Shown here one piece after another: positions 577 to 41,744 of a stretch of DNA of 64,000 nucleotides (the first letter of the stretch is position 1; the number at the start of each line of letters is the position of its first letter). The stretch is from Streptomyces carminius (GTDB taxonomy: Bacteria; Actinomycetota; Actinomycetes; Streptomycetales; Streptomycetaceae), in assembly GCF_002794255.1 (NCBI RefSeq), contig NZ_PGGW01000011.1, positions 186,001 to 250,000 of the forward strand, written 5' to 3'. The position numbers and the translations under genes are program-made. The notes under the pieces were generated by a model, which saw nothing but the letters and a program-made list of their open reading frames with translations, had not been told where the DNA came from and did not search any database.

Positions 577-2205
577 GTGCGAGGGTCCGCGGTGAGCGGG
601 GCCGGCGGGCAGGCGGCCGGTGGTGCGGCCGGTGAGGCGGTGCGGCGGCGGACGTTCGCGGTGATCAGTCATCCGGATGCGGGGAAGTCGACGCTGACCG
701 AGGCGCTGGCGCTGCACGCGCGGGCGATCACTTCGGCGGGTGCGGTGCACGGCAAGGCCGGGCGGCGCGGGGTCTCCTCGGACTGGATGGAGATGGAGAA
801 GGCCCGGGGGATCTCGGTGACCTCGGCGGTGCTGCAGTTCGCCTACCGCGATCATGTGCTGAACCTGCTGGACACGCCGGGGCACGCGGACTTCTCCGAG
901 GACACCTACCGGGTGCTGGCGGCGGTGGACTGCGCGGTGATGCTCATCGACGCGGCCAAGGGGCTGGAGGAGCAGACCCGCAAGCTGTTCGACGTGTGCC
1001 GGCACCGCGGCGTCCCGGTGATCACGTTCGTCAACAAGTGGGACCGGCCCGGCCGCGAGGCGCTGGAACTGCTGGACGAGATCGAGTCCGAGTTCGCTCT
1101 CAAGCCCACGCCGGTGACGTGGCCGGTGGGGGAGGCCGGTCATCTGCGGGGGCTGGTCGATGTGCGCGAGCCGGAGCGGATGCTGCGTTACAGCCGCGCC
1201 CCGGGCGGGGCGCGGGCGGCGGCCGAGGAGGCGGTCGCGGCCGGGCGGGCGGCGGCGGAGGAGAGCGCCGACTGGGAGCGGGCGGTGGAGGAGCTGGAGC
1301 TGCTGCGGGCCGACGGCGCCGAGCACGACCGGTCCGCGTTCCTGGCGGGGAAGTCCACGCCGGTGTTCTTCGGCGCGGCGGTGTCCAACATCGGGGTACG
1401 GCTGCTGCTGGACGCGCTGGTGGACCTGGCCCCGGCGCCCGGTGCGCGGGAGCTGGCCGGCGGCGGGCACCGCCCCGTGGGCGCACCCTTCTCCGGGCTG
1501 GTGTTCAAGGTGCAGGCCAACATGGACCGCTCCCACCGGGACCGGATCGCGTTCGTGCGGGTGTGCTCGGGGGTCTTCGAGCGCGGCATGACGGTGATCC
1601 ATGCCGCGTCGGGGCGGCCGTTCGCCACCAAGTACGCGCACAGCGTCTTCGGCCAGGACCGCTCCTCGGTGGACCTGGCCTATCCCGGCGATGTGGTCGG
1701 GCTGGTCAACGCCGCCGCCCTGCGGGTGGGCGACACCCTCTACAGCGGAAAGCCGGCCGTCTTCCCGCCGATGCCGACCTTCGCGCCCGAGCACTTCGCG
1801 GTGGCCCGGCCGGCCGACATCGGCCGTTCCAAGCAGTTCCGGCGCGGGATCGCGCAGCTGGACGAGGAGGGTGTGGTGCAGGTGCTGGTCTCCGACCGGC
1901 GCGGGGAGCAGGCGCCGGTGCTGGCGGCGGTCGGGCCGATGCAGTTCGAGGTGGTCACCCACCGGATGGAGCACGAGTTCTCCTCCCCGGTGCGGCTGGA
2001 GCCGCTGCCCTACCACCTGGCCCGGGCCACCGACGCGTCCGGCGCCGACAAGCTGGACCGCACCCGGCTGGTGAAGGGGGAGCCCTTCACCCGGCTGCGG
2101 GACAGGGCGCACCTGGCGCTCTTCCCCAGCCGGTGGCAGGCCGACTCCTTCGCCCGGGAGTTCCCCGGCACCCGTCTGGAGACCCTCATCGCCGCCCACG
2201 AATGA
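577..2205 (+). CDS. prfC: Peptide chain release factor 3
   Basis: Translational GTPase that recycles release factors RF1 and RF2 after peptide release, in the cytoplasm. The G1 motif (HPDAGKST) lies near residue 32, the G2/switch region (RGISVTS) near residue 70, G3 (DTPGHADF) near 98 and G4 (NKWD) near 152. An EF-Tu-like domain 2 and an RF3 C-terminal domain follow. The 542-residue length fits the family (about 530), the small excess being an alanine/glycine-rich N-terminus. ATG 577 is used; a GTG about 15 bases downstream is an alternative. A hairpin at 2225-2245 follows the stop. Confidence 0.95.
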   Translation: MRGSAVSGAGGQAAGGAAGEAVRRRTFAVISHPDAGKSTLTEALALHARAITSAGAVHGKAGRRGVSSDWMEMEKARGISVTSAVLQFAYRDHVLNLLDTPGHADFSEDTYRVLAAVDCAVMLIDAAKGLEEQTRKLFDVCRHRGVPVITFVNKWDRPGREALELLDEIESEFALKPTPVTWPVGEAGHLRGLVDVREPERMLRYSRAPGGARAAAEEAVAAGRAAAEESADWERAVEELELLRADGAEHDRSAFLAGKSTPVFFGAAVSNIGVRLLLDALVDLAPAPGARELAGGGHRPVGAPFSGLVFKVQANMDRSHRDRIAFVRVCSGVFERGMTVIHAASGRPFATKYAHSVFGQDRSSVDLAYPGDVVGLVNAAALRVGDTLYSGKPAVFPPMPTFAPEHFAVARPADIGRSKQFRRGIAQLDEEGVVQVLVSDRRGEQAPVLAAVGPMQFEVVTHRMEHEFSSPVRLEPLPYHLARATDASGADKLDRTRLVKGEPFTRLRDRAHLALFPSRWQADSFAREFPGTRLETLIAAHE

Positions 2206-2224
2206 CCGGCGGAGCCCGAGGCGG

Positions 2225-2245
2225 GCCGGGCACCGGCTGCCCGGC
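2225..2245 (+). terminator. Hairpin after prfC
   Basis: Perfect 8-bp stem (GCCGGGCA / TGCCCGGC) with a 5-base loop, 19 bases after the prfC stop. There is no U-tract, as is common in actinomycetes. Confidence 0.5.
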
Positions 2246-2287
2246 ACCCGTACGGCCGGGCCGGACGCCAGGCCGGTCCGGCTCAGG

Positions 2288-2790
2288 CGTGCCCAGGTGT
2301 CGGCGACGGTACGCCGGTCGGTGGCGGCAGCGGTGAGGCCGGCGTCGGCCAGGTCGTCCCCGTCGGCCGGGCAGGGCAGGACGAGCGCGGGGTCGGCGGC
2401 GGTGACGACACCGGTGAGTTCCAGGGTGTCGCCGCCGTGTGCGGCGATCACCTCGGCCGTGCCCTTCGGCTCGACGGAGTCCCACAGTTCGACCACCGCC
2501 ACCCGGGCCGTACCGCCGTCGGCCGACCGCTCCGGTTCGGGGACGAGGTCCTCGCGCAGCGCGCAGCACGCGCAGGCGTGGACCAGCGGCACCGAGGCGG
2601 AGCCCAGTTCGCCGGAGGCGTCGCGCACGGTGCGCCGTACCGTGCCGTCGGCGGCGCCGGACAGTTCGTGGTGGAGCGGGGGACTGCCCGGCAGGGCGCG
2701 CAGCGGCCCCTCCACGGTCTCGCGACGGGCGTCGGCGTGCGGCCCGGCGACGATCACCACGGGGAGCGCGCGGTCCGCCGTCGTCAGCGC
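2288..2790 (-). pseudogene. CobW-like zinc-responsive protein, truncated
   Basis: On the minus strand just after L31, a frame encodes about 165 residues typical of the CobW-like proteins found with zinc-free ribosomal proteins in Streptomyces. It shows the VVIVAG start, the HACACCALREDL metal-binding motif (CxCC) and ELWDSVEPKG, ending at ADTWARL. Resemblance then stops. The remaining two thirds of the family's usual length are missing, and the frame runs on antisense to prfC. The usual ATG overlapping the L31 stop reads CTG here. Zinc-linked function is known for the family; the decay is inferred from the missing C-terminus and start codon. Confidence 0.7.
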
Positions 2791-3038
2791 GCCCCGCGTG
2801 TTCCGTAGCGGCGTTCGAATCGCTCGACGCGTCCGGCGGTGTCCAGGACCCGCTGGGTGCCGGTGTAGAACGGGTGGCTGGCCGAGGAGACCTCGACGTC
2901 GACCACGGGGTAGGTGTTGCCGTCCTCCCACTCGATCGTCTTGTCGCTGCCCATGGTGGAGCGGGTGAGGAAGGCGAAGCCGGCGCTCTTGTCGCGGAAG
3001 ACGACGGGGCGGTACGGGGGGTGGATTCCGGGTTTCAC
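2784..3038 (-). CDS. rpmE: Ribosomal protein L31, zinc-free type B
   Basis: Large-subunit protein bL31, 84 residues. It lacks the CxxC pairs of the zinc-binding form and has the type B pattern ([13 protein letters not shown] near the N-terminus, [11 protein letters not shown] near the C-terminus). In actinobacteria these cysteine-free paralogues replace the zinc-containing versions when zinc is scarce, freeing metal. GTG 3038 is chosen because GGAGG lies 8-14 bases upstream. It sits 44 bases after L33 in the same direction and is probably co-transcribed from the Zur-box promoter. The cobW remnant follows at once. Confidence 0.93.
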
Positions 3039-3082
3039 GGTGGTGTTCCTCCGGTCGTGCGGTTCGGGGTGGGGGCCGGGGG

Positions 3083-3247
3083 TCAGCGTTCCTCGCGGAA
3101 GTCGGCATGTCGCCGTGCGACGGGGTCGTACTTGCGCAGCGCCATGCGGTCGGGGTCGTTGCGTCGGTTCTTGCGGGTGACGTAGGTGTAGCCGGTCCCC
3201 GCGGTGGAGCGGAGCTTGATGACCGGGCGCAGTTCGTCGCGTGCCAT
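3083..3247 (-). CDS. rpmG: Ribosomal protein L33, zinc-free form
   Basis: Large-subunit protein bL33, 54 residues, starting [12 protein letters not shown] and ending FREER. It lacks the cysteine pairs of the zinc-ribbon L33, which marks the zinc-independent paralogue. The ATG at 3247 is only 7 bases from a good minus-strand -10 hexamer (TATACT, 3255-3260), so the mRNA may be leaderless; no Shine-Dalgarno is visible. A Zur box directly upstream suggests repression when zinc is plentiful. It heads the L33-L31 pair, divergent from L28-S14. Confidence 0.93.
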
Positions 3248-3260
3248 GCCCGCTAGTATA

Positions 3261-3282
3261 TGACAATGGTTTCCATTACCGA
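3261..3282. promoter_or_regulatory. Zur box between divergent ribosomal protein genes
   Basis: AT-rich dyad (TGACAATGGTTTCCATTACC) with perfect AATGG/CCATT arms, matching the shape of Streptomyces Zur operators. It lies between rpmG (minus) and rpmB (plus), directly upstream of the rpmG -10 hexamer at 3255-3260. Zinc-loaded Zur bound here would block both promoters. The box is seen directly; the regulator is inferred from family knowledge. Confidence 0.8.
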
Positions 3283-3316
3283 AAAGGGAGCCGTCCCCCG
3301 CGAGAGAGGACCCGCC

Positions 3317-3553
3317 TTGTCCGCCCACTGCCAGCTGACCGGCGCCGTGCCGGGCTTCGGCAAGAAGATCTCCCATTCCCACCGGCGCACCTCCCGCCGC
3401 TTCGACCCCAACATCCAGCGCAAGCGGTACTGGCTGCCGAGCGAGGGCCGCCATGTCCGGCTCACGCTGAGCACGAAGGGCATCAAGACCGTCGACGTCA
3501 TCGGGATCGAGGCCGCCGTGGCCCGTATCCGGGCGCGGGGAGGGAAGGTCTGA
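3317..3553 (+). CDS. rpmB: Ribosomal protein L28, alternative form
   Basis: Large-subunit protein bL28, 78 residues, with the SAHCQLTG start and the basic [13 protein letters not shown] core. One cysteine remains but there are no CxxC pairs, consistent with the zinc-independent paralogue. TTG 3317 is chosen over upstream in-frame starts because GAGAGAGGA lies 6 bases before it and family proteins begin at this serine. It is transcribed away from the Zur box and overlaps rpsN by one base (TGATG). Confidence 0.92.
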
Positions 3554-26386: not shown

Positions 26387-27871
26387 TCAGTGCGTTGACG
26401 GTTGCCACGACCGAGGCAAGTTTAGACAGAATGGTGAGGGTTGGCCACTGGGAGAAAATATGCCGGATGGGGATGAGCCAAACGCTCCATTGAAGTCGAC
26501 GGTGCCGCCATTGAAAGCCGCATTATCGAAACTGACTGTTTCGCCGTTGAATCCTGCGTCGGTGAAGCTAATTTCACCACTGCTGAATACTGCATAACCA
26601 AAGTCGACGAACCCGTCAAAGAAGGTCACTTGATTGAAGTTGGTTGTGCTGCCCGAGAACGCTGCATAAGTGAAAATTACTACGCCGCCAGATATTGTTG
26701 TGTCATCGAATTCGATCGTGCCGCCATTGAAGCTAGCGCGATCAAAATTTACTATGCTGCCATCAAAAGAAGCATCCCTAAAGGCCAGTTTTCCACCATT
26801 GATGCTTGCGCCTTCAAAGTGGATGGCGCCGCCGTTGAATCCTGCATCGTTGAATCTAAGTACGCCGCCGTTGATGGCGGCATGACTAAAGGTGATCGAA
26901 TCTCTGCTAATGGTTGCATGATTGAAGTCGATTCCGCCATTGTTGATTTCTGCATGTTCGAAGTTAACTGTGCCGCCGTTAAAGTTTGCGTAATCAAATC
27001 GAACGGTGCTGCCGTTGAATTCTGCTCCATTGAAGTTGACTGTGCCGTTAGAGAATGTTGCGTGGTTGAAGTTGACTGTGCCGTCAAGGAACTTCGTATG
27101 GTTGAAGTTGACTGTGCTGCCGGAGAATGTGGTGTTGTTGAAATCGACCATGCTGCCGGAGAATGTCGCGTTGCTGAAATCGACCATTCCGCTGCGGAAA
27201 GATGCTCCGGAGAAATCCCCGCCGTCGAAGACGACACCGGTGAAGTCCAGGTCGTGCCCCTCCCAGGAACGAGGGTGTTCGGGTGGGAGGCTGAGGTGGT
27301 CGCGGATGAGGCGGATCACAGTATGCCGGACCTCTCGCAGAGCCAAGTAGGTGTGTCGGGCGCCTGCGTCTTCCGATGGAAAGTCAGTCTGGGAAGTGTA
27401 GGGGAGGCGGAGGTAGGCGCACAGAACGTCGATGCAGGTCTGGCGCAAGTCACGGGTGGGGGCATCGTCAGCTAGGCCAGCCAGGGCGTGAACGCCGCCC
27501 AAGCGTACTGCGGCTGATTCTTCGCCGAGTTGGGAGACGGCGGTGGTGAACCGCTCGGTGTGTAGGCGGGTGGCGTCCCGTAGGGCGCCATCCTCGTCGA
27601 TACGTTGGCGCCGGTAGGCCACCACTAGAGCTACTAGGGCACCGGCTCCAGCGACCACTCCGAAGGACAACTTCACCAGGTCGAACAGAGTTTTGGAGGT
27701 GAGCTGCCGCTCAGGCTTGAGATTCTGCACATCCAGTAGACCCCATCCGGTGAGGAACACCGCAGCGGCCACGGTGATCGCCGTACTAAAGGTCAAGGCA
27801 AGCGCGGTCCCTACGGGCCACAGGCGCAAGCCGCGTGATTCATCCTGACGTCGGGGCAAGTTTGGTCTCAC
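26387..27871 (-). CDS. Membrane protein with twenty 12-residue repeats
   Basis: Protein of 494 residues, function unknown. Two membrane segments (GTALALTFSTAITVAAAVFL; FGVVAGAGALVALVVAY) are followed by a helical domain (RFTTAVSQLGEESAAVRLGGVHALAGL, ending near residue 195). From about residue 220 to 465 come roughly 20 imperfect dodecapeptides of the type TVNFNHATFSNG, with F at the fourth and ninth positions. These predict a right-handed beta-helix related to pentapeptide repeats. A 60-base sample in the repeats is about 47% G+C, far below the neighbours, which suggests recent transfer. GTG 27871 has only a weak ribosome site. It is the outermost cargo gene. Confidence 0.8.
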   Translation of the reverse strand: MRPNLPRRQDESRGLRLWPVGTALALTFSTAITVAAAVFLTGWGLLDVQNLKPERQLTSKTLFDLVKLSFGVVAGAGALVALVVAYRRQRIDEDGALRDATRLHTERFTTAVSQLGEESAAVRLGGVHALAGLADDAPTRDLRQTCIDVLCAYLRLPYTSQTDFPSEDAGARHTYLALREVRHTVIRLIRDHLSLPPEHPRSWEGHDLDFTGVVFDGGDFSGASFRSGMVDFSNATFSGSMVDFNNTTFSGSTVNFNHTKFLDGTVNFNHATFSNGTVNFNGAEFNGSTVRFDYANFNGGTVNFEHAEINNGGIDFNHATISRDSITFSHAAINGGVLRFNDAGFNGGAIHFEGASINGGKLAFRDASFDGSIVNFDRASFNGGTIEFDDTTISGGVVIFTYAAFSGSTTNFNQVTFFDGFVDFGYAVFSSGEISFTDAGFNGETVSFDNAAFNGGTVDFNGAFGSSPSGIFSPSGQPSPFCLNLPRSWQPSTH

Positions 27872-32043: not shown

Positions 32044-33690
32044 ATGACGGAAACCACGATCCCCCCGACACCCCCACCCGAGACCGACCCCACACCTGCC
32101 CCTGCGGCTCCTGCTCCGGCCCCGGTGGTCGAGCAGGCACCGCCCTCCGACGCCGCCGCCGACAACACGGGGCACGCCCCGGGTGGGTGGCCGGTGGTGC
32201 CGCTGGCGCTGTCGGGGGCGAACACCACCGTCGGTGCGGTTTCGGCTGCCGCGCTGGCTGCTGGGCCGCTGGCTGCGGTGGTGGCCGCGACCGGGGCGGT
32301 GGTGCTGGGCACGGCCGCCGCCACCCGCGCCCGCCGCACCACTCCGAAGCGGGAAGCCCGGCGGGCAGCCGCCCGGACGGCCGGACGGAACGCGGCTGCT
32401 GCGGCGGCCCGGCGCACCGGCCACCGGAGCCTCCCTGTGGCTGCGGGCCGGTCCGGTGGTGCGGCCAAGCCCGGTCGCGCGGGCGGCCGGACGCGCCGCG
32501 GCAACGGCGCGTCTGGCAGTGCAGCGTCCCGGCACCGCAGCACTCCCGCCGCGGTGGCTGGGGCCGGGAAGCACTTCGGCAAGCACCACCGGCCCGGCAG
32601 CAAGCCGGGTGGTGGTGCGGCCGGCCGTTCTGGGGCCGGGCGCGGCGGTGGGCTGCTGAACCGGGCCGCTGCGGCGCGGTCTGGGCAGCGGGCCGCCGCG
32701 CCCACGCGGGCACAGCGGCGGGCGCAGACGGCTGCGGCGCGGCGGGCGGTGGCCGATGCCCGCCGCGCGCACGGCCCGGCCGCCCGTACCGCCGCCCGGC
32801 TCGCCGCCAAGAACCACAAGCAGCAGAAGCAGCAGAAGGCCGGTGGGCGGGGGCTGGCCGCCGCCCTGAACCGGGCCCGCACCGCCCGGGACCAGGCCGC
32901 CCGCCGGGGCCGGGCGGCCCGCGACGCCCGCACCGCCGGTGCGGTGGCAGCTCGCCGTTCGGCGCTGCGCAAGGCACCGGCCCGGCGGGCGGCGCGGCGG
33001 GCGCTGTGGCGCTCCGCGGCCCGCTCCTACGGCCGCTGCCTGCTCGCCGGGCTGCTGGCCGCCCCGCTCGGGCTGCTCGGCATGGCCACCACGCCCCTGG
33101 GCCGCCGGCTCGGGTGGGCGTGGCTGATGTATCCCGGCCGCCGCCTGTTCTGGCGCCTGGTCGGCCGGGCCCGCACCGAGCGCGAGCAGCGCGACACCGC
33201 GATCCGTGACCGGCTCGCCGCCGAGGAAGCCGCCGCCGACACCACGGCCGAGGAGAACGCGCACGAGGTGGGGGACCGCGTGCGGCGGCCCACCCACCTG
33301 CTCCCCACCCACCCCGATGCCACCCGCTCTGTGGAGGTTGTGAACGTGTCTGGTTTCCGCTTCGAAGAGGCCGCCGCCGAGATGGAAGAGGCGGCCCGCA
33401 CCTACACCCCCGACGGCGCCATGGAAATCCTGGCCATGATCGAGAACCTGCCCGCCGCGATGACCTCGGTGGCCAACACCTTCCGCATCCTGGCCGAGCG
33501 CTCCGACGACGAATTCCCGCTGGAGAAGGAGGTCGCCGCCGGGTTCGAGGACATCTACGCCGCGCTGGTGGCCGCCATCGACAAGGCCGAGGAGATGGGC
33601 CCGCTCTTCCGCCGGGTCCACGAAGCCGACATCGCCCGCCACGAGGACCCCCGCAACGGCACCGAAGCTGAGAAGGGCTGGAACGTCTGA
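32044..33690 (+). CDS. Alanine/arginine-rich transfer membrane protein
   Basis: 548-residue protein. A Pro/Ala-rich N-terminus leads to a hydrophobic segment (residues 60-100, AAALAAGPLAAVVAATGAVV). A long Ala/Arg-rich, highly basic region (about 105-320) follows and could bind DNA. Then come a second membrane pair (LLAGLLAAPLGLLGMA; LGWAWLMYPGRRLFW) and an acidic helical C-terminal domain (FRFEEAAAEMEEAA...). ATG 32044 has GGAGGA 8 bases upstream. It overlaps traB by one base, so it is a likely TraB partner at the membrane. Confidence 0.65.
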   Translation: MTETTIPPTPPPETDPTPAPAAPAPAPVVEQAPPSDAAADNTGHAPGGWPVVPLALSGANTTVGAVSAAALAAGPLAAVVAATGAVVLGTAAATRARRTTPKREARRAAARTAGRNAAAAAARRTGHRSLPVAAGRSGGAAKPGRAGGRTRRGNGASGSAASRHRSTPAAVAGAGKHFGKHHRPGSKPGGGAAGRSGAGRGGGLLNRAAAARSGQRAAAPTRAQRRAQTAAARRAVADARRAHGPAARTAARLAAKNHKQQKQQKAGGRGLAAALNRARTARDQAARRGRAARDARTAGAVAARRSALRKAPARRAARRALWRSAARSYGRCLLAGLLAAPLGLLGMATTPLGRRLGWAWLMYPGRRLFWRLVGRARTEREQRDTAIRDRLAAEEAAADTTAEENAHEVGDRVRRPTHLLPTHPDATRSVEVVNVSGFRFEEAAAEMEEAARTYTPDGAMEILAMIENLPAAMTSVANTFRILAERSDDEFPLEKEVAAGFEDIYAALVAAIDKAEEMGPLFRRVHEADIARHEDPRNGTEAEKGWNV

Positions 33691-35837
33691 TGACCACCAA
33701 CACCGCCAACACCGCAAGTGGTGGGCCGGTGCTGGATTGGGCGGCCGGTCACGGACCCGTGACCGGCGCCCTGTCCGCCACCACCGGCGCCTTCGCCGCC
33801 GCCACCACCGGCGCCGCCACCGGTATGCCGCCCGGCTGGGCCCTGGCGGTCGGCGCCGCCGGGGCCCTGGGCCACACCATCGCCGGACTCCGAGTGCGCA
33901 ACGCCGGGCGCACGGTCGCCACCCGGGCCGCCTGCTGGCTGCTCGGGGCCGGGTGGACCACCTGGGCCATGGCCACTGGACCGCTCACCTGGACGGCGCT
34001 GGGCTCGCTGGCCGCGCTCGGGGTGGGCATCGGGACCGCCAACCGGTCCGCCGACCTCTACGAAGAAGCCCGCGAGGAGGAGGCGATCGCAGCGGCCGAG
34101 CGGCAGGTGGCCGCCGAGCTGTCCGCCGAGCGGCGCGCGATCGCCGCCGAGTGGGCCGACCGCATCCAGCGGGTGTGCGGCATCACGGTGCGGGTGCTGG
34201 CGGTGGAGATGTGGCCCACCGGTACCGGCTTCTCCCTCGACGCCGAACTCCCCCCGGGCGGCGCCACCTACGACAAAGTCGCCAAGGAGGCGCCGCGGCT
34301 GTCGGCGGACGCCAGGCTGCCGCACGGCTGCACCGCCACCGCCTCCCCCGGCATCGACCAGGGCCGGGTCATCCTCGATGTGACCACCGTCAATGTGCTG
34401 GCCGAGGAGCGCACCTACCCCGACGACTACGGCCCGCTGTCGGTGCTCACGGGGATTCCGTGGGGGTACCGGACCAACGCCGAGGAGATCCGCACCTACC
34501 TGCGCGAACAGTGCGCCCTGGTCGTGGGCCCGACCGGGTCGGGCAAGACCAACATGGTGCACGTCATCCTGGCCGGGTTCGCCCGCGCAGACGACGTGCT
34601 CACCTTCGTCATCGACCTCAACGCCGGATCCGCCGGCCTCCCGTGGGTGCTCCCCGCCCTGTCCGGAGACCTGCGGGGCCCGGACGGGGCGCCGGTGCGG
34701 CCCGGGATCGACTGGCTGGCCGCCACCCACGAAGAGGCCACCATCATGCTGGATGCGGTGCTGCGCATCGCCCGGCACCGCAAGACCGTCTATCAGGACC
34801 TGATGGCCCGCGCGAACACCGACCTGCTCCCGATCAGCGCGCGGATTCCGCAGATCATGCTGGTGGTCGACGAGGGTGCGGAGATCCTGACCAGCACCGA
34901 CCGCGCCATGCGCCAGCTCGCGGCCAAGATCCTGGAGGTCATCCGCATCGCCCGCGCCATGGGCGTGCGCACCGTCCTGACCGCGCTGGGGGCCACCGGC
35001 TCAGTGCTGGGGAACCTGATGATCCGCCGGGAAGCCAAAGTCCGGGTGGCGCTGACGGGCGGGGAGACCGAGGGCATGGACCTGTCCAAGATGTTCCCCG
35101 GCACCCGCGGCCTGCGCACCGACCAGGCCCCGTACAAGGGCTCGGGGTTCCTGGGCACCCCCGAGGAGACGGCCGGACTGTTCAAGGCGTGGCGGATCCT
35201 GCCCAACCAGATCCGCGACATCACCACCGCCACCACCGACCGCCACCCGGTCTTGGACGCCCCGTCCAAGGAGGCGGCCGGAGACGCCTACACCCGCCGC
35301 TGGGACCCCGACCGCACCGCATGGATGCGCGACACCACCAGCGGGTCGGACACGAGCACCGGCACCGGCACCACCGCGGCGCAGACCACCGGCAGCGGGC
35401 GGGACGGACTGAACCTCTCCGCCCTACGCAACGAGCAGCCGGAGCAGGGCCCGGAGCCGGACGCCGATGCACTGGCCGCCCGGTTCATGGCCGAGATCGA
35501 CAAGACGTTCGGCACCACCGCCGAACCCGGCACCCCGGACCGGCCCGAGCAGCGGGACGACAAGCCGCCCACGGCACCCCGGCCGGGGCTGAACCTCTCC
35601 GCCCTACGCGGACAGGGAGAGCAGGCGCCGGAGGCCGGTCCGGCATGGCTGGCCGACGCGATCGACGCGATCGCCTCCGCCGGCGCCGCAGGGATGAAGC
35701 CGTCCGCGATCGCGGAACTGGTCGGCAAGGACCGCAAGACCGTCCGCGCCGCCCTGCGGGCCGCGGCCGAGCGCGGGGAGCTGGTCTACCGGGACAACGG
35801 GCCGCACTCGGTCTACCTCCACCCCGACCACGCCTGA
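33690..35837 (+). CDS. traB: FtsK/SpoIIIE-type DNA translocase TraB
   Basis: 715-residue hexameric DNA pump that moves double-stranded DNA between mycelia in AICE transfer. Hydrophobic segments lie between residues 45 and 120. Walker A (GPTGSGKTN) lies near residue 282 and Walker B (QIMLVVDEGAE) near 390. The C-terminal 70 residues form a winged helix (GMKPSAIAELVGKDRKTVRAALRAAAERGELVY) that in related TraB proteins recognises short repeats in the clt locus. Two LNLSALR copies occur in the linker. Two repeat arrays near the gene are candidate targets. No relaxase is encoded. Confidence 0.92.
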   Translation: MTTNTANTASGGPVLDWAAGHGPVTGALSATTGAFAAATTGAATGMPPGWALAVGAAGALGHTIAGLRVRNAGRTVATRAACWLLGAGWTTWAMATGPLTWTALGSLAALGVGIGTANRSADLYEEAREEEAIAAAERQVAAELSAERRAIAAEWADRIQRVCGITVRVLAVEMWPTGTGFSLDAELPPGGATYDKVAKEAPRLSADARLPHGCTATASPGIDQGRVILDVTTVNVLAEERTYPDDYGPLSVLTGIPWGYRTNAEEIRTYLREQCALVVGPTGSGKTNMVHVILAGFARADDVLTFVIDLNAGSAGLPWVLPALSGDLRGPDGAPVRPGIDWLAATHEEATIMLDAVLRIARHRKTVYQDLMARANTDLLPISARIPQIMLVVDEGAEILTSTDRAMRQLAAKILEVIRIARAMGVRTVLTALGATGSVLGNLMIRREAKVRVALTGGETEGMDLSKMFPGTRGLRTDQAPYKGSGFLGTPEETAGLFKAWRILPNQIRDITTATTDRHPVLDAPSKEAAGDAYTRRWDPDRTAWMRDTTSGSDTSTGTGTTAAQTTGSGRDGLNLSALRNEQPEQGPEPDADALAARFMAEIDKTFGTTAEPGTPDRPEQRDDKPPTAPRPGLNLSALRGQGEQAPEAGPAWLADAIDAIASAGAAGMKPSAIAELVGKDRKTVRAALRAAAERGELVYRDNGPHSVYLHPDHA

Positions 35838-36417: not shown

Positions 36418-37533
36418 ATGACCCATCCTCCCGACCCGGTGCGCATTGGTTCGGTGTGCACCGGCTACGGCGGCCTGGACATGGCCGTCCAAGCCGTGTT
36501 CGGCGGCTCCCTGGCGTGGGTGGCCGACAACGACCCCGGCGCCGCCCGGATCCTGGCCCACCACTGGCCGCAGGTACCCAACCTCGCAGACATCACCGCC
36601 GTGGACTGGCGCGCGGTGGAGCCGGTGGACATCGTGTGCGGCGGCTACCCCTGTCAGCCGTTCAGCACCGCCGGCAAACGGAAGGGAGTCACCGATGACC
36701 GCCACATCTGGCCGCACATCGCCCGTGCCCTTGGCGTACTACGACCCCGGTACGCGGTCTTTGAGAACGTCGCAGGGCACCTTTCCCTCGGATTCGACAC
36801 CGTCCTCACCGACCTTGCCGCCCTCGGGTTCGATGCGCGGTGGTGCACTCTTCGCGCATCCGATGTCGGTGCTCCCCACCGGCGCAACCGCCTGTTCCTC
36901 CTCGCCTGGCCTGCCCACCCCCCGCGCGAGGGACGCCAAGGGCCGCGGCTACCGCGATGGCCTGCCGACGGTGGCCGCGCTGCTGCCCACTCCCTCGACC
37001 TCGGAGGCGACCGGGACCGGGCACGCGGCACAGGGCGGGATGAACCTGCGGCACGCCGTCTCCCTGCTGCCCACCCCGGTGGCCGGGGACGCCCGGGGAG
37101 CCCGGCAGGCCACCGCGCCGAACCCGCGCAGCACCTCACCGACCCTGACCGACCTGACCCACAGTGGCACCCTGCTGCCCACTCCGCGGGCGACGGACGG
37201 GACCAAGGGCGGTCCGAACCAGCGCGGCAGCAAGGGGGATCTGACCCTGCCCTCGGCAGCCCACCGGATTGGGGCCCCTACACCCCGGCCGTCCGGCGCT
37301 GGGAAGCCGTCCTCGGCCGCCCCGCCCCGGGGCCAGTTGACGCTCTGGGACGGCTGAACCCGCTCCTGGTGGAGTGGCTGATGGGCCTGCCCGCCGGCCA
37401 CGTCACCGACGTGCCCGGGCTGTCCCGCACCGCCCAGCTCAAGGCCCTGGGCAACGGCGTCGTTCCCCACCAGGCCACCACCGCCCTGCGGCTACTGGCC
37501 ACTGCGGAGACCGACACCGCCCACGCGGCCTGA
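36418..37533 (+). CDS. dcm: DNA cytosine-5 methyltransferase
   Basis: 371-residue C5-cytosine methylase. Motif I is GSVCTGYGGLDMAV (residue 11), motif IV the catalytic CGGYPCQPFS (about 78), motif VI FENVAGHLSL (about 118), motif VIII-like GAPHRRNRLFLLAW (about 158). The end matches motifs IX-X (RLNPLLVEWLMGLP, QLKALGNGVVPHQA). The variable region between (about 170-275) is low-complexity in this frame, whereas the +1 frame there encodes an ordered-looking LPTP-repeat protein. Together with GC3 this suggests overlapping genes. ATG 36418 has AGGAGGT 8 bases upstream. It may protect or mark the element's DNA. Confidence 0.85.
   Translation: MTHPPDPVRIGSVCTGYGGLDMAVQAVFGGSLAWVADNDPGAARILAHHWPQVPNLADITAVDWRAVEPVDIVCGGYPCQPFSTAGKRKGVTDDRHIWPHIARALGVLRPRYAVFENVAGHLSLGFDTVLTDLAALGFDARWCTLRASDVGAPHRRNRLFLLAWPAHPPREGRQGPRLPRWPADGGRAAAHSLDLGGDRDRARGTGRDEPAARRLPAAHPGGRGRPGSPAGHRAEPAQHLTDPDRPDPQWHPAAHSAGDGRDQGRSEPARQQGGSDPALGSPPDWGPYTPAVRRWEAVLGRPAPGPVDALGRLNPLLVEWLMGLPAGHVTDVPGLSRTAQLKALGNGVVPHQATTALRLLATAETDTAHAA
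36695..37357 (+). CDS. Overlapping LPTP-repeat protein inside dcm, +1 frame
   Basis: 220-residue frame wholly inside the methyltransferase gene. It has its own ATG with AAGGGAG 6 bases upstream. It reads LAYYDPGTRSLRTSQGTF, SPTLPPSGSMRGGALF, then repeated LLPTP units (SLLPTPVAGDAR, TLLPTPRATDGTKGGPNQRG) and ends QLTLWDG. From memory, this LPTP pattern is widespread in actinophage proteins annotated as methylase-associated. Hand counts over part of the overlap give GC3 near 75% in both frames, then about 86% in this frame versus 67% in the dcm frame around 37190-37280. Real overlap is likely; expression is unproven. Confidence 0.6.
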   Translation: MTATSGRTSPVPLAYYDPGTRSLRTSQGTFPSDSTPSSPTLPPSGSMRGGALFAHPMSVLPTGATACSSSPGLPTPRARDAKGRGYRDGLPTVAALLPTPSTSEATGTGHAAQGGMNLRHAVSLLPTPVAGDARGARQATAPNPRSTSPTLTDLTHSGTLLPTPRATDGTKGGPNQRGSKGDLTLPSAAHRIGAPTPRPSGAGKPSSAAPPRGQLTLWDG

Positions 37534-37622: not shown

Positions 37623-38525
37623 ATGACCCATGACGCACGCTCCGCGCTGCTGGCCGCGGCCCTGGCCGCCGCCGGGCGCGGCTGGCACGTCTTCCCCTTG
37701 CGGCCCGGCAGCAAGGTGCCCGCCCTGCACGGTGCGAAGGCGTGTTCCCGTACCGGGCCCTGTGCGGGCGGGCACGTGAAGTGGGAGCAGCGCGCCACCA
37801 CCGACCCCGGCCGCATCCGGGCCGCGTGGGCACAGGCGCCGTACAACGTCGGCATCGCCACCGGCCCGTCCGGGCTGGTCGTCATCGACCTGGACACCCC
37901 GGAGCACAAAGGCAAGAGGGACGCGCCTTGCGGCGCGACGACCTTTGCGGCGCTCTGCGAGCGCGCCGGGCACGCCGTCCCGGCCACCTACCGCACCCGG
38001 ACCGCGAGCGGCGGCACCCACCTGTACTTCACCGCCCCGCCCGGTGTGCGGCTGCCCAACACCGCGGGAACCATTGCCGCTTCGGTCGACACCCGGGCGT
38101 GGGGCGGATACGTGGTCGCCACCGGCAGCATCACCCCGGGCGGGCGGTACGAGGCTCTGTGCGCCGCTGAGACGGCCGCGGTGCCCGGATGGCTGCTCAG
38201 CATCCTCCGCCCGGCTCCCGCGCGCGCTGCGGGGCCGCTGCGGCTGCCTGCGGTGGACGGCAGCCGCGCCGCCGTGGCCGCGCTGGAAGCCGAATGCGCC
38301 GTGGTGGCCGCGGCTCCCGAGGGCGGGCGGAACGTCGCCTTGAACCGCAGCGCGTTCAAGGTGGGGCGGTTCGTCGCATGGGGCGACATCCCCCGTCACA
38401 TGGTGGAGGTGGCCTTCCAAGAGGCTGGAGAGGCGGCAGGACTCACCGCTGTCGAGTGCCGCGCCACGATCCGCAGTGCCCTGGACAGCTCCCTGCGCAC
38501 CGCCCGCCCCCGGGAGGCGGCATGA
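37623..38525 (+). CDS. Bifunctional DNA primase/polymerase (Prim-Pol)
   Basis: 300-residue replication protein of the archaeo-eukaryotic primase type found in AICEs and plasmids. The N-terminal Prim-Pol domain shows GWHVFPLRPGSKVPAL (residue 20), catalytic acids in VVIDLDTPEHKG (about 84), the SGGTHLYFTAP motif (about 130), and GGYVVATGSI. The C-terminal helical tail (GRNVALNRSAFKVGRFVAWG) is typical. It carries no helicase domain; the DUF3631 protein two genes downstream probably supplies that. It overlaps the next gene by 4 bases. Confidence 0.88.
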   Translation: MTHDARSALLAAALAAAGRGWHVFPLRPGSKVPALHGAKACSRTGPCAGGHVKWEQRATTDPGRIRAAWAQAPYNVGIATGPSGLVVIDLDTPEHKGKRDAPCGATTFAALCERAGHAVPATYRTRTASGGTHLYFTAPPGVRLPNTAGTIAASVDTRAWGGYVVATGSITPGGRYEALCAAETAAVPGWLLSILRPAPARAAGPLRLPAVDGSRAAVAALEAECAVVAAAPEGGRNVALNRSAFKVGRFVAWGDIPRHMVEVAFQEAGEAAGLTAVECRATIRSALDSSLRTARPREAA

Positions 38526-38881
38526 CCGCCCCCATCACCCCCCGCTTGGAAGGCCACCCCGCACCCCCGGCCGGCCTGTGCACCGCCCGGCCGCCCGCAC
38601 CCCCGGCGGCCGGAGGCGACCCGAAGGACGCCGCCCGTCAGGGCGTCCGCTCTGTTCCTCGTTCGAACCCGCGCCGTGGCAATGGCCGGTACCCGATCGC
38701 GTGGCTGCACATCACCGCACCCGGTCGCGGCGCGGTGCCCACGGCCCGGTCGTGGTGCGAGTGCGGCCACGACCGCAGCGCCGTCGGCACCGCCCGCGTG
38801 CTGGCCCTGATCGACGCGCACGCCGCGCACCGGGACCGCTGCCCGCTCCGCACCCCCCAGGAAGGGAGGGCCGCCGCATGA
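38522..38881 (+). CDS. Small cysteine/histidine protein of the replication block
   Basis: 119-residue protein. A proline-rich N-terminus precedes a conserved-looking core with WLHITAP and a metal-binding-like pattern SWCECGHDRSAVG...LIDAHAAHRDRCPL. Similar small proteins lie between primase and helicase genes of other AICEs. It is probably a zinc-finger accessory; function unknown. It overlaps genes on both sides by 4 bases. Confidence 0.65.
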   Translation: MTAPITPRLEGHPAPPAGLCTARPPAPPAAGGDPKDAARQGVRSVPRSNPRRGNGRYPIAWLHITAPGRGAVPTARSWCECGHDRSAVGTARVLALIDAHAAHRDRCPLRTPQEGRAAA

Positions 38882-40065
38882 CCACACCCCAGACAACCAC
38901 CACCGCATCCGCCGTCGACGGGGCCGCGCTGCTGGACGAGGTGGAGCGCTTCCACCGGCGCTTCAACGTCTTCCCCACCGAGGCCGCTTACGTCGCCGTG
39001 ACCCTGTGGGATGCTCACGCGCACCTGCTCGACTGCTTCGACTCCACCCCGCGGCTCGCCTTCCTCTCCCCGGAGCCCGGTTCGGGGAAGTCCCGGGCGC
39101 TGGAAGTGGTCGAAACGCTCGTGCCGCGTTCCATGGCCGCCGTGGACGCTTCGGCCGCGGCCCTGTTCCGGTCGGTGGCCGGGCTGGACGGCGGGCGTCC
39201 CACGATCCTGTTCGACGAGATTGACACCGTCTTCGGGCCGAAAGCCGGGGAGAACGAGCAGCTTCGCGGGTTCCTCAACGCCGGGCACACCCGCGGGCGG
39301 GTGATGTACCGGTGCGTGGGGGACGGCTCCAACCAGCAGGTACAGGGCTTCCCCTCGTTCTGCGCGGTGGCGGTGGCCGGACTCGGCTCGCTGCCGGACA
39401 CGATCCTGACCCGCTCGGTCATCATCCGCATGCGCCGCCGCGCCCGGAACGAGAAGGTGGAGCCCTTCCGCACCCGCATCCACGTCGCCGAGGGCAACGC
39501 CCTGCGCGACCAACTCGCTGCCTGGGCCGAAGCCATCCAGGAGCAGGTGGCCGACGCCTACCCGCAGATGCCCGAGGGGGTCACCGACCGGCCCGCCGAC
39601 GTGTGGGAACCGCTAATCGCGGTGGCGGACGCCGCCGGGGGCGACTGGCCGCGCCGGGCCCGGGAAGCCTGCCTGACGCTGGTCAAGGCATCCCAGGTGA
39701 ACGACAAGGCCAGCATTGGTATCCGGCTGCTGACCGACCTGCGCGACCACGTGCTGATCGGGGTGGACAAGCTGCCCACCGTCGCCATCCTCGACCGGCT
39801 CAACGCCCTGGACGACGCCCCTTGGGCCGATCTGGACGGCCGGCCGCTGGACTCCCGGCGGCTCTCCCGGATGCTGGGCCAGTACGTCACCGCCGACGGT
39901 GACCCGATCGCCTCCCGCAACATCCGCACCGCCGGAGGAGTCCTCAAGGGCTACCACGCCGAGGACCTGCACGACGCTTGGCAGCGCTACTGCCCGCCCC
40001 CTCCGGAAACTCCGCTACCTCCGCTCCAGCCGCTACAGCCCAGCTCACACCCCCTGCCCGCGTAG
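38878..40065 (+). CDS. DUF3631 helicase-like replication protein
   Basis: 395-residue P-loop protein. Walker A reads LSPEPGSGKSRALE near residue 65 and Walker B TILFDEIDTVFG near 105. A sensor-like segment (SVIIRMRRRA) near 183 precedes the DUF3631 C-terminal region (IGIRLLTDLRDHVL, SRRLSRMLGQY). Proteins of this family work with Prim-Pol to replicate integrative elements after excision. An array of TGTAGCGG iterons begins inside its 3' end and continues downstream. Confidence 0.85.
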   Translation: MTTPQTTTTASAVDGAALLDEVERFHRRFNVFPTEAAYVAVTLWDAHAHLLDCFDSTPRLAFLSPEPGSGKSRALEVVETLVPRSMAAVDASAAALFRSVAGLDGGRPTILFDEIDTVFGPKAGENEQLRGFLNAGHTRGRVMYRCVGDGSNQQVQGFPSFCAVAVAGLGSLPDTILTRSVIIRMRRRARNEKVEPFRTRIHVAEGNALRDQLAAWAEAIQEQVADAYPQMPEGVTDRPADVWEPLIAVADAAGGDWPRRAREACLTLVKASQVNDKASIGIRLLTDLRDHVLIGVDKLPTVAILDRLNALDDAPWADLDGRPLDSRRLSRMLGQYVTADGDPIASRNIRTAGGVLKGYHAEDLHDAWQRYCPPPPETPLPPLQPLQPSSHPLPA

Positions 40066-40272: not shown

Positions 40273-40470
40273 ATGAGCCCAGCACTGCCCCCGACCCACC
40301 AGGCGCTCACGGTCCCCGAAGTCATGGCAGCGCTCCGGATGAGCCGCCCCAAGGTCTACGACCTCATCCGGTCCGGCGCCCTGCCCAGCTACACCGAGGG
40401 CCGTTCCCGGCGCATCCCTGCCGAATCGCTCCGCACGTACATCCAAGCCAAGCTCCAGGAGGCTGCCTGA
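40273..40470 (+). CDS. xis: Excisionase, HTH_17 type
   Basis: 65-residue MerR-like helix-turn-helix protein: LTVPEVMAALRMSRPKVYDLIRSGALPSYTEGRSRRIPAESL. AICE Xis proteins bind beside att and turn the integrase towards excision. ATG 40273 follows a GGAGGAGG site at a slightly long distance. Its stop overlaps the integrase start by one base (TGATG), so the two are co-translated. The iteron array lies directly upstream. Confidence 0.9.
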   Translation: MSPALPPTHQALTVPEVMAALRMSRPKVYDLIRSGALPSYTEGRSRRIPAESLRTYIQAKLQEAA

Positions 40471-41744
40471 TGGCCAAGCGCCGTGCCAATGGCGAAGGCA
40501 CCATCACCAAACGGACGGACGGCCGATACCAGGCAGCCGCGTACGTCTACCGCCCGGACGGCACCCGCGTCCGCAAGTTCGTCTACGGCAAGACCCGTGC
40601 TGAGGTGGCACAGAAGCTCACCGAGATGCAGGAGAAGACCCGGCAGGGCATCCCGGCCGCCACGTCCGCGATGCCCTTCGGGGACTACCTCGCCTACTGG
40701 CTCGCGACCGTGGCCGCCGCGCGGCTCAAGCCCTCCACCTTCATGAGCTACGAGGTGATGGCACGCCTGTACATTGCTCCCTCACTCGGCCGGAAGAAGC
40801 TCAACCGGCTCAGCCCCGCCGACGTACGGCGCTTCCTCGCGGAGTTCCGCGACGGCTGTCTGTGTTGCCTGCGAGGGCTGGACGCGAACCGCGCCGAGGA
40901 CGAGCGGAAGTGCTGCGCCAAGGGACGGTGCTGCCACCGCCATCCGTCCGCGCGCACCGTGCAGTACGTCCATGCCGTACTGCGGTCCGCCCTGCAGCAA
41001 GCGATGCGGGAAGAACTCATCGCGCGCAACGTGGCACGCATCGTGGAGACGCCCACCGTCGTCCGGCAGGAGGTACGGCCGCTGGACCGGACCGAAGTGC
41101 GGATGCTGCTGAAAGCGGCTCGCTCGCACCGGCTGTACGCGCTGTGGCTGCTGCTGGTCTCCACGGGCCTGCGCCGCGGGGAAGTGCTCGCGCTCACCTG
41201 GGATGACATCGACCTCGGCCGGGGGCAACTGCGGGTGCGCCGGAATCTCCAGCGCATCAAGAAAGAGCTGGTCTTCGGCACCCCGAAGACGGCCCGTTCT
41301 CAGCGCACCGTCTCCCTGCCCCGGCGGTGTGCGGCTGCTCTCAGGGAGCACCAGAGCGCGCAGCGCGCGGAGCGGGCCGCGGCCGGGTTGAAGTGGGACC
41401 CGCTGCCGCACCAGCCGAGCGGGCTGGTCTTCACCACACCCACCGGCCGGCCGACCGATCCGCGGAGCCTGAACCGGATGCTCACCGTTCTCTGCCGCAA
41501 CGCGAAGGTGCGCAGGGTGCGGGTGCACGACCTCCGGCACACCTGCGCCTCACTCCTGCTGGCTCAGGGAGTGGATGCCCGGACCATCATGGAGACGCTG
41601 GGGCACAGCACGATCACCATGACGCTGGACACCTACGCGCACGTGATGGACACGACGCTCAGAGCAGCCGCCGAGCGGATGGAGGACGCGTTGGGCCCGG
41701 AGGGCGGGGGAGAGGGCGAGGAAGCCGCTCAGCCGCCCGGGTGA
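40470..41744 (+). CDS. int: Tyrosine integrase of the AICE
   Basis: 424-residue site-specific recombinase for the tRNA-Pro attachment site. It has an arm-binding start (GEGTITKRTDGRYQAAAYV), a core-binding domain from about 70, and the catalytic residues R in STGLRRGEVL, HxxR in HDLRHTCASL, H in LGHSTITM, and Y in LDTYAHV. An unusual insertion near residues 130-155 is rich in Cys and His (CLCCLRG...KCCAKGRCCHRH) and may bind zinc. The stop lies 66 bases before the attR core, the standard layout. It is the intact counterpart of the relic at 25.6 kb. Confidence 0.95.
   Translation: MAKRRANGEGTITKRTDGRYQAAAYVYRPDGTRVRKFVYGKTRAEVAQKLTEMQEKTRQGIPAATSAMPFGDYLAYWLATVAAARLKPSTFMSYEVMARLYIAPSLGRKKLNRLSPADVRRFLAEFRDGCLCCLRGLDANRAEDERKCCAKGRCCHRHPSARTVQYVHAVLRSALQQAMREELIARNVARIVETPTVVRQEVRPLDRTEVRMLLKAARSHRLYALWLLLVSTGLRRGEVLALTWDDIDLGRGQLRVRRNLQRIKKELVFGTPKTARSQRTVSLPRRCAAALREHQSAQRAERAAAGLKWDPLPHQPSGLVFTTPTGRPTDPRSLNRMLTVLCRNAKVRRVRVHDLRHTCASLLLAQGVDARTIMETLGHSTITMTLDTYAHVMDTTLRAAAERMEDALGPEGGGEGEEAAQPPG

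Follow-up and report, generated by a model that had tools for sequence, protein, structure and literature searches.

What does a second long reading frame inside a methyltransferase gene encode, if it encodes anything at all? The question is raised by a locus of Streptomyces carminius contained in a 64,000-nucleotide stretch of DNA (assembly GCF_002794255.1, contig NZ_PGGW01000011.1, positions 186,001 to 250,000 of the forward strand), which we refer to as the window and whose first letter is position 1 in what follows. Here an open reading frame (ORF) for a C5-cytosine methyltransferase, dcm or alpha, encloses a second ORF, beta, read in the +1 frame. We consider it probable, at roughly 0.8, that two frames of this one DNA segment together specify a two-chain C5-cytosine methyltransferase, with beta as a displaced target-recognition region acting in trans. 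The reading draws on single-chain relatives in which the parts are fused, on split relatives in which alpha lacks motifs IX-X, and on precedent enzymes. The parts of the locus are listed below, with the alpha motifs (IV, VI and so on) named as in C5-methyltransferases generally.

36418 to 37533, + strand: alpha, the C5-cytosine methyltransferase (dcm) ORF, 371 amino acids, with motifs I-VIII, a shadow linker and motifs IX-X (PF00145, phrog_363)
36649 to 36657, + strand: alpha motif IV, Pro-Cys-Gln (PCQ), from the sequence
36681 to 36688, + strand: GAAGGGAG, probable ribosome-binding site of beta, inside alpha
36695 to 37357, + strand: beta, the nested +1 ORF, 220 amino acids, an LPTP-module protein (kept start and end, selection tests)
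36695 to 36905, + strand: stretch coding in both frames, for alpha motifs VI-VIII and for the beta N-terminal domain (RTSQ..TLPPSGSMRGGALFAHP)
36763 to 36771, + strand: alpha motif VI, Glu-Asn-Val (ENV), within the dual-coded part, from the sequence
36906 to 37265, + strand: beta-dominated stretch, LPTP modules in +1 and an open shadow in alpha
36911 to 36982, + strand: beta module 1, type 4 by module clustering, LPTPRARDAKGRGYRDGLPTVAAL
36983 to 37066, + strand: beta module 2, type 2 by module clustering
37067 to 37174, + strand: beta module 3, type 3 by module clustering
37175 to 37270, + strand: beta module 4, type 1 by module clustering, LPTPRATDGTKGGPNQRGSKGDLTLPSAA
37351 to 37392, + strand: counterpart of alpha motif IX, RLNPLLVEWLMGLP, from the sequence, with the beta stop codon at its start
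37447 to 37473, + strand: alpha motif X, LGNGVVPHQ (ALGNGVVPHQ in frame), from the sequence

Selection on both reading frames

The catalytic core of alpha, motifs I-VIII, was matched by PF00145 (residues 9-163, 101.9 bits, E 6e-29), and phrog_363 aligned with residues 5-367. TIGR00675, the dcm family of NCBIfam, gave 92.7 bits on residues 12-163, below its cut-off of 100.65 bits; on a single-chain relative (L127) it gave 120.5 bits, likewise on the N domain (8-167). Motifs IV, VI, IX and X all lie in the dcm frame, in agreement with a first-pass annotation of this DNA that had placed catalytic motifs at both ends of dcm. The extent of both ORFs given there, the separate ATG of beta at 36695 and the Shine-Dalgarno-like (SD-like) GAAGGGAG upstream of it, at 36681-36688, were likewise confirmed.

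Base composition differs between the frames. The G+C content of third codon positions at 36750-36920 was 43/56 (77%) in the dcm frame and 42/56 (75%) in +1, and at 37190-37280 it was 25/30 (83%) in +1 and 19/29 (66%) in dcm, so that an earlier hand tally (about 75% in both frames, and about 86% against 67%) was nearly right. Over the whole variable stretch, 36906-37265, the values were 109/119 (92%) in +1 and 81/119 (68%) in dcm, and in the flanks, read in the dcm frame, 82/92 (89%) and 54/58 (93%). An open +1 frame by itself means little at this G+C content, and elsewhere in the window a 742-residue ORF overlaps another ORF in a different frame; the comparative signal, however, is far beyond chance. 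It was obtained with 23 genes, namely that of the window and those of 22 of 80 relative loci, among which pairs and sites are mutually dependent, and the p values given are indicative only. The rates at which the window differed from the 22 others at alpha codon positions 1/2/3 were as follows (184 of 6322 aligned variable-region columns, with mismatched frames, were excluded).

Upstream of beta: 0.167/0.124/0.367
36695-36905: 0.106/0.067/0.216
36906-37265: 0.418/0.197/0.172
37266-37357: 0.231/0.177/0.290
Downstream of beta: 0.190/0.169/0.426

The first codon position of alpha coincides with the third of beta, and the pattern at 36906-37265 is therefore that of a gene read in +1. For four-fold degenerate sites, with all pairs of the 23 genes taken over five consecutive stretches, the rates were 0.408, 0.267, 0.111, 0.328 and 0.436 in the alpha frame and 0.168, 0.121, 0.451, 0.288 and 0.129 in the +1 frame. 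Mean amino acid identity at 36906-37265 was 0.707 in +1 versus 0.458 in the alpha frame; upstream of beta it was 0.574 in +1 and 0.761 in alpha. Purifying selection in 36906-37265 is carried by the +1 frame, with the dcm frame kept open, and over 36695-36905 both frames are constrained. The first-pass annotation had proposed selection on both frames, a methylase variable region shaped as the shadow of the second protein, and synonymous-site conservation across homologous genes as a check; the rates bear out both proposals.

When the alpha four-fold rate was calculated by site, it was 0.257 for 36695-36905 as compared with 0.423 and 0.434 in the flanks of the same genes (Mann-Whitney p 7e-6). 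The drop starts at the ATG of beta, the rate for 36566-36694 still being 0.428.

The ends of beta are kept in near relatives. In 22 of the 23 genes its ATG occupies the aligned site; in the remaining one (L012) it stands one codon earlier. It is preceded by AAGGGA in 19/23 and by AAAGG or AAGGGG in the other 4. The alpha Gly codon within this site (36685-36687) is GGA in 20/23 genes, GGG in 3/23 and GGC in 0/23, GGC being the commonest Gly codon in these genes (495/1108). Beyond these near relatives the start becomes less distinct; an SD-like match of at least 4 bases precedes the beta start chosen by rule in 49 of 53 other host loci. Close to the beta C-terminus QLT is found in 20/23 genes, and the full ending QLTLWDG (37336-37357) is shared by Streptomyces members and lacking in divergent ones. 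QLTLW has what we take to be a resemblance to the clamp-binding motif of ImuB. A sliding-clamp reading was rejected, as divergent members differ (QLTIEDA, QLTIGDV), and is weakened further by the fact that the same bases co-encode alpha just upstream of motif IX.

These data also bear on a programmed +1 ribosomal frameshift near the end of motif VIII, which would join the LPTP modules to the catalytic N domain. The modules do follow motif VIII directly in +1, and the junction in the window is rich in C. The constraint on alpha four-fold sites nevertheless sets in at the ATG of beta, a good way before the junction, and the start site of beta is kept in near relatives; in the window's class the product would moreover lack motifs IX-X unless a second shift led back. 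On the four-fold rates and the start site, we regard frameshifting as very unlikely. A profile of beta's N-terminal domain (HB) also matched in +1 within other methylase genes. Because a conserved alpha frame imposes a similar +1 translation, these matches were set aside as stand-alone evidence, and the argument uses four-fold rates, counts of stops, start sites and module sharing.

An open shadow frame and exchangeable modules

If alpha is to reach motifs IX-X, its frame has to stay open beneath the modules of beta. Among purely nested sequences, whose modules all lie in +1 and whose IX-X lie in alpha, there were 0 alpha-frame stops between VIII and IX in 82/82 (the window included), as against about 101 stops and 33 open loci expected when the synonymous codons of each locus's own +1 frame were permuted. 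No purely nested locus with a stopped shadow was found in either of two architecture typings (168 sequences; 182 loci). When mosaic loci were added, the shadow was open in all 60 loci seeded by beta or its phage relatives and in all 42 seeded by alpha (102/102 loci with +1 modules and IX-X in alpha). Because the shadow is kept open, alpha is most likely read through to IX-X, with its sequence there dictated by beta.

Queries with beta reached phages of Mycobacterium, Gordonia, Arthrobacter, Streptomyces, Rhodococcus, Propionibacterium and Rothia, and 115 phage records were all of actinobacterial phages by organism name, in line with the first-pass remark that the LPTP protein is of an actinophage type. 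In viral nested loci the rates flip too (alpha 0.140, +1 0.379; 15 pairs). Two beta matches occur in the genome of Mycobacterium phage ArcusAngelus (L170), which suggests two related methylase loci. Weaker matches (E 1e-6 to 0.9) were found in Microcystis, Synechococcus, Sulfitobacter and Acidovorax phages and in a Methylorubrum megaplasmid, and closer inspection of six weak-match loci placed the beta ORF of each in +1 on top of a methylase ORF. Together with 160 loci from two scans, one of which kept 80 of at least 557 relatives, these six make up a distant viral set of 166 loci. Sixteen without the beta motif were set aside, including one (L294) whose overlap is plain, and the motif lies in +1 over the methylase N domain in 150/150 of those holding it, among the matches listed. 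For the stop count 20 of the 150 were excluded as redundant and 2 of the remaining 130 as too short. Among the matches listed, alpha was open to the end of beta in 109/128 non-redundant distant loci versus 10.8 expected, and below 50% G+C in 45/51 versus 1.4 expected; the latter figure means that G+C-rich DNA does not account for the overlap. A count limited to loci where alpha outlasts beta was circular for the alpha frame and was replaced by this unrestricted one; the +1-frame count in the restricted set (0 stops versus 191.5 expected, 109 loci) is partly circular and is left unused.

Could only one frame be functional, with beta arising by chance as a shadow of dcm, or with dcm in decay? 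Long chance ORFs are common at this G+C content, but neither the flip in the substitution pattern, nor the 0 stops found for some 101 expected, nor the open alpha frames of distant loci below 50% G+C among the matches listed would be left by a single frame, and we judge this explanation highly improbable. The first-pass annotation had looked to homologous dcm genes in which the +1 frame is freely interrupted as evidence against a real second gene; no such free interruption was seen, and exceptions are single ones, such as L068, whose beta has a stop.

The relatives also differ in how the parts are distributed over the frames. The 182 loci with both methylase ends comprised 106 nested, 41 mosaic, 16 split, 12 single-chain, 6 odd and 1 typed as 'none'. 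The nested count includes a one-module group without LPTP. Since the proteins of the window served as starting queries, the sample leans towards the window. In the split loci IX-X lie in +1 and the alpha frame is stopped in all 16, so that alpha there is without IX-X; 11 of the 16 are regular, and 5 (L129, L162, L200, L202, L207) have modules in +2. Modules or IX-X in this unexpected +2 frame were noted in these five and in L046 and L064, possibly reflecting further frame shifts or sequencing errors. In the first typing, of 168 sequences, 9 incomplete and 3 odd ones (L046, L064, L162) were set aside, and L129 was typed differently there and in the later typing of 182.

The modules are shared with single-chain relatives. 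When 650 modules were clustered into types (copies from the window's own genome, L175, L205 and L212, excluded), 22 types had at least 5 members, and 15 of these 22 are read in +1 by some relatives and in the alpha frame by others; for type 1 the counts were 90 in +1, 22 in the dcm frame and 4 in +2. Their order is 4-2-3-1 in the window, 4-5-10-1 in L009 and 4-2-10 in L015, the N domains being similar and the content different. The four LPTP modules of beta are interchangeable units. In loci with modules in the alpha and +1 frames only, the +1 modules come first in 40/41, the exception being L127.

The boundary between the chains varies. A tree of 146 N domains required at least 27 architecture changes, versus 51.1 for shuffled labels, and the architectures have thus changed often. 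One split and one nested locus on Streptomyces plasmids (L173 and L174) share N-domain DNA at 93% identity (last 60 bases excluded) and variable regions at 50%, which looks like recombinational replacement of the recognition region. A second candidate sister pair with a swapped variable region (L183, L186) was rejected after a recount gave 78.5% for the N domain and 62.6% for the variable region. In L084, L086, L106 and L119 the N-domain profile matched in two separate pieces; by analogy with the hidden HNH elements of other phage methylases, the gaps could be inserts.

A different nested protein is found in 26 loci among L048-L080, which lack LPTP repeats and have a small one-module +1 protein over the methylase (pattern FRTPLASD..RGGE....RGTIALSHQIIDL; Leucobacter, Microbacterium, Actinomyces and others). 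Between VIII and IX the four-fold rates of this group were 0.120 in alpha and 0.561 in +1 (24 of the 26 entered, 20 kept), and an SD-like match of at least 4 bases precedes the beta start in 23/26. One such protein (L049) had no match in Pfam or NCBIfam. The 26 sequences had been intended as a beta-free control ('none') and were dropped as such, since they have a +1 protein of their own.

A proposed division of an enzyme over two chains

The profile phrog_1008, a DNA methyltransferase, matched both proteins of the window: beta residues 94-181 aligned with profile positions 132-215 and alpha residues 255-368 with 202-325. What the profile treats as one continuous chain is thus divided between two frames in the window, and this was the first sign that beta may hold a part carried in one chain by other methylases. 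In the single-chain relatives the array follows a part aligning to M.HhaI residues 12-173 and precedes IX-X. The target-recognition domain of HhaI lies between this part and that of residues 270-309; against the latter, a profile of the single-chain relatives' part after the array gave -1.6 bits, which is not significant.

Two-chain C5-methyltransferases are known, M.EaeI being one of them. For M.EcoHK31I, Lee, Kam and Shaw are said to have described in 1995 a small chain whose +1 reading frame starts within the gene for the large one; the window would share this two-frame layout, with a +1 small chain inside a large one. The likeness is one of motif descriptions and not of sequence. M.AquI and M.EcoHK31I consist of two polypeptides, and in the latter the large chain holds I-VIII, X and a predicted target-recognition domain and the small chain IX, as set out in the part of PMC3404938 consulted; the consulted part of PMC3439449 calls M.EcoHK31I naturally split. 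In the window, by contrast, beta ends where IX begins, and the small chain carries a four-module LPTP array. With IX in alpha, at 37351-37392, the window is a variant of the M.EcoHK31I type and not a member of it. The motif division described for M.EcoHK31I was found by eye in three distant loci (L168, L291, L292). By loose patterns, and among the matches listed, IX was in beta in 116/150 distant loci and in alpha in 0/150, X was at the end of alpha in 108/150, and both IX in beta and X in alpha were present in 94/150. M.AquI, with a I-VIII chain and a chain carrying the distal variable region and IX-X (PMC3404938, same part), resembles the split loci L067, L075, L081 and L083. The window differs from it in having IX-X in alpha and one ORF nested in the other; IX-X in +1 occur in 16/182 relatives.

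We therefore weighed whether beta is a real protein that merely modulates, by binding the methyltransferase or host restriction enzymes, with alpha alone as a complete enzyme of reduced recognition region. Alpha does have catalytic motifs at both ends, and beta has no recognisable catalytic domain in Pfam or NCBIfam. Yet the shadow linker of alpha, which would have to recognise the DNA, is poorly conserved as protein (identity 0.458), the single-chain relatives carry the same module types in frame, and in other relatives the +1 side holds IX or IX-X, which fits a subunit and not a regulator. A modulator is unlikely in our view. The suggestion of the first-pass annotation that the second protein could modulate the methylase or be an alternative product of it can be sharpened: beta is most likely, as far as comparison of sequences tells, the target-recognition part of the same enzyme, made as a separate chain.

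In the two-chain enzyme that we propose, alpha (371 residues) would supply catalytic motifs I-VIII, a tolerated shadow linker and IX-X. Beta (220 residues) would be initiated separately in +1 from the SD-like site and ATG inside alpha, and its N-terminal domain and four LPTP modules would be the counterpart of the variable recognition region between VIII and IX. The two chains would assemble into an active enzyme to which beta would give DNA sequence specificity. Multispecific phage C5-methyltransferases (SPbeta, phi3T; Trautner et al.) reportedly carry several exchangeable recognition modules between VIII and IX. Likened to them by description and not by sequence, the modules of the window fit in position and modularity, but are on a second chain and in another frame. 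The analogy suggests that several modules per beta may mean several targets, perhaps one per module. A plausible use would be to shield the mobile element from host restriction.

Several observations weigh against the two-chain reading. The last 30 codons of beta are weakly constrained (alpha four-fold rate 0.291, p 0.01). Among the 82 phage and viral loci, an SD-like match of at least 4 bases precedes the rule-chosen start in 53 and is absent in 29, and that start is GTG in 43 versus ATG in 32. The search with the 220-residue product that the first-pass annotation had proposed gave phrog_1008 and no family of Pfam or NCBIfam at E up to 1. AlphaFold2 produced no fold for beta (predicted local distance difference test score 57.5, predicted template-modelling score 0.20) and none for the module array of the single-chain relative L127, where residues 201-331 scored below 50; the proposed target recognition by the modules therefore rests on their position and modularity. 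The alpha frame has stops before the end of beta in 19/128 distant loci among the matches listed, and single stops fall inside beta in L068 and inside alpha in L069 and L070. In mosaic loci (27 pairs) the variable region gave 0.331 in alpha and 0.247 in +1 with no clean flip, mixed rates that would be expected if modules occupy both frames. In this comparison by architecture class L069, L070 and near-identical rows were excluded, and the fused class had one usable pair.

The nearest published parallel found offers one more explanation. In the consulted part of PMC11855218, the ShiLan gp65 methylase is described as containing a hidden out-of-frame HNH endonuclease with the host frame open, and beta might likewise be a selfish insertion, since ShiLan also has an out-of-frame ORF in a phage methylase whose own frame stays open. 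A search of Pfam and NCBIfam at E up to 1, however, linked beta to no nuclease, HNH or otherwise. Its ORF runs across conserved methylase motifs instead of being an insert, ShiLan gp65 is a different gene from the gp70 relative found here, and the hidden HNH gene represents another kind of element. We give such an origin virtually no credence. For Mycobacterium phage Babsiella (L169, JN699001) the record has methylase gp54 (1640-3487) with an annotated nested 'DNA methylase domain protein', gp55 (2178-2486); its notes hold product names only and nothing on the overlap. The consulted part of PMC3711429, a survey of conserved frame transitions, does not mention the methylase family described here, and those of PMC6456624 and PMC12707154 contain nothing on a methylase overlap. 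No published account of this overlap was found by title or abstract opening in the full-text literature, a scope outside which most subscription papers fall.

Setting, spread and meaning

Downstream of alpha the window encodes further proteins of a mobile element.

37623 to 38525, + strand: Prim-Pol replication protein of a mobile element (PF09250, E 1e-46)
38476 to 40065, + strand: DUF3631 protein, longest ORF taken (PF12307, E 4e-64)
40470 to 41744, + strand: tyrosine integrase (PF00589, E 9e-28)

These neighbours are consistent with an integrative element. The label of an actinomycete integrative and conjugative element is plausible rather than proved, because the ORF at 33690-35837, taken at first for FtsK-like, has a sub-threshold DUF87 match only. 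A pentapeptide-repeat protein (PF13576) is encoded near the element, on the minus strand at 26387-27871.

The genome of the window contains one match to beta. Matches to the LPTP protein were found in 41 of 199 genomes of the genus (own included; 15 candidates scored per genome), many covering only part of beta. In a phylum-wide sample the A3 profile matched in at least 7 of 396 genomes (own included), a lower bound, with 5 candidates scored per genome.

For a wider picture of the family we put the chances at about even. It would comprise a probably multispecific array delivered in trans by an overprinted gene, modules readable in either frame and a sliding chain boundary. One-chain, nested, mosaic and split forms would be interconverted repeatedly by recombination and small indels, and the overlap would be old and maintained in phages whose hosts belong to several bacterial phyla.

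When two bacterial genes overlap at length on one strand, the overlap is easily written off as an artefact of high G+C content; here there is selection on both frames and a testable product. Because its members range from one-chain through nested and mosaic to split forms, the family shows how overlaps arise and resolve, and the two-chain reading offers a reason for the short or doubled gene annotation of these methylases. It would give a possible function to a family of proteins that have no annotation in many actinophages and in other phages, and its modules may serve as natural material for studying DNA-target recognition by a separately supplied subunit.

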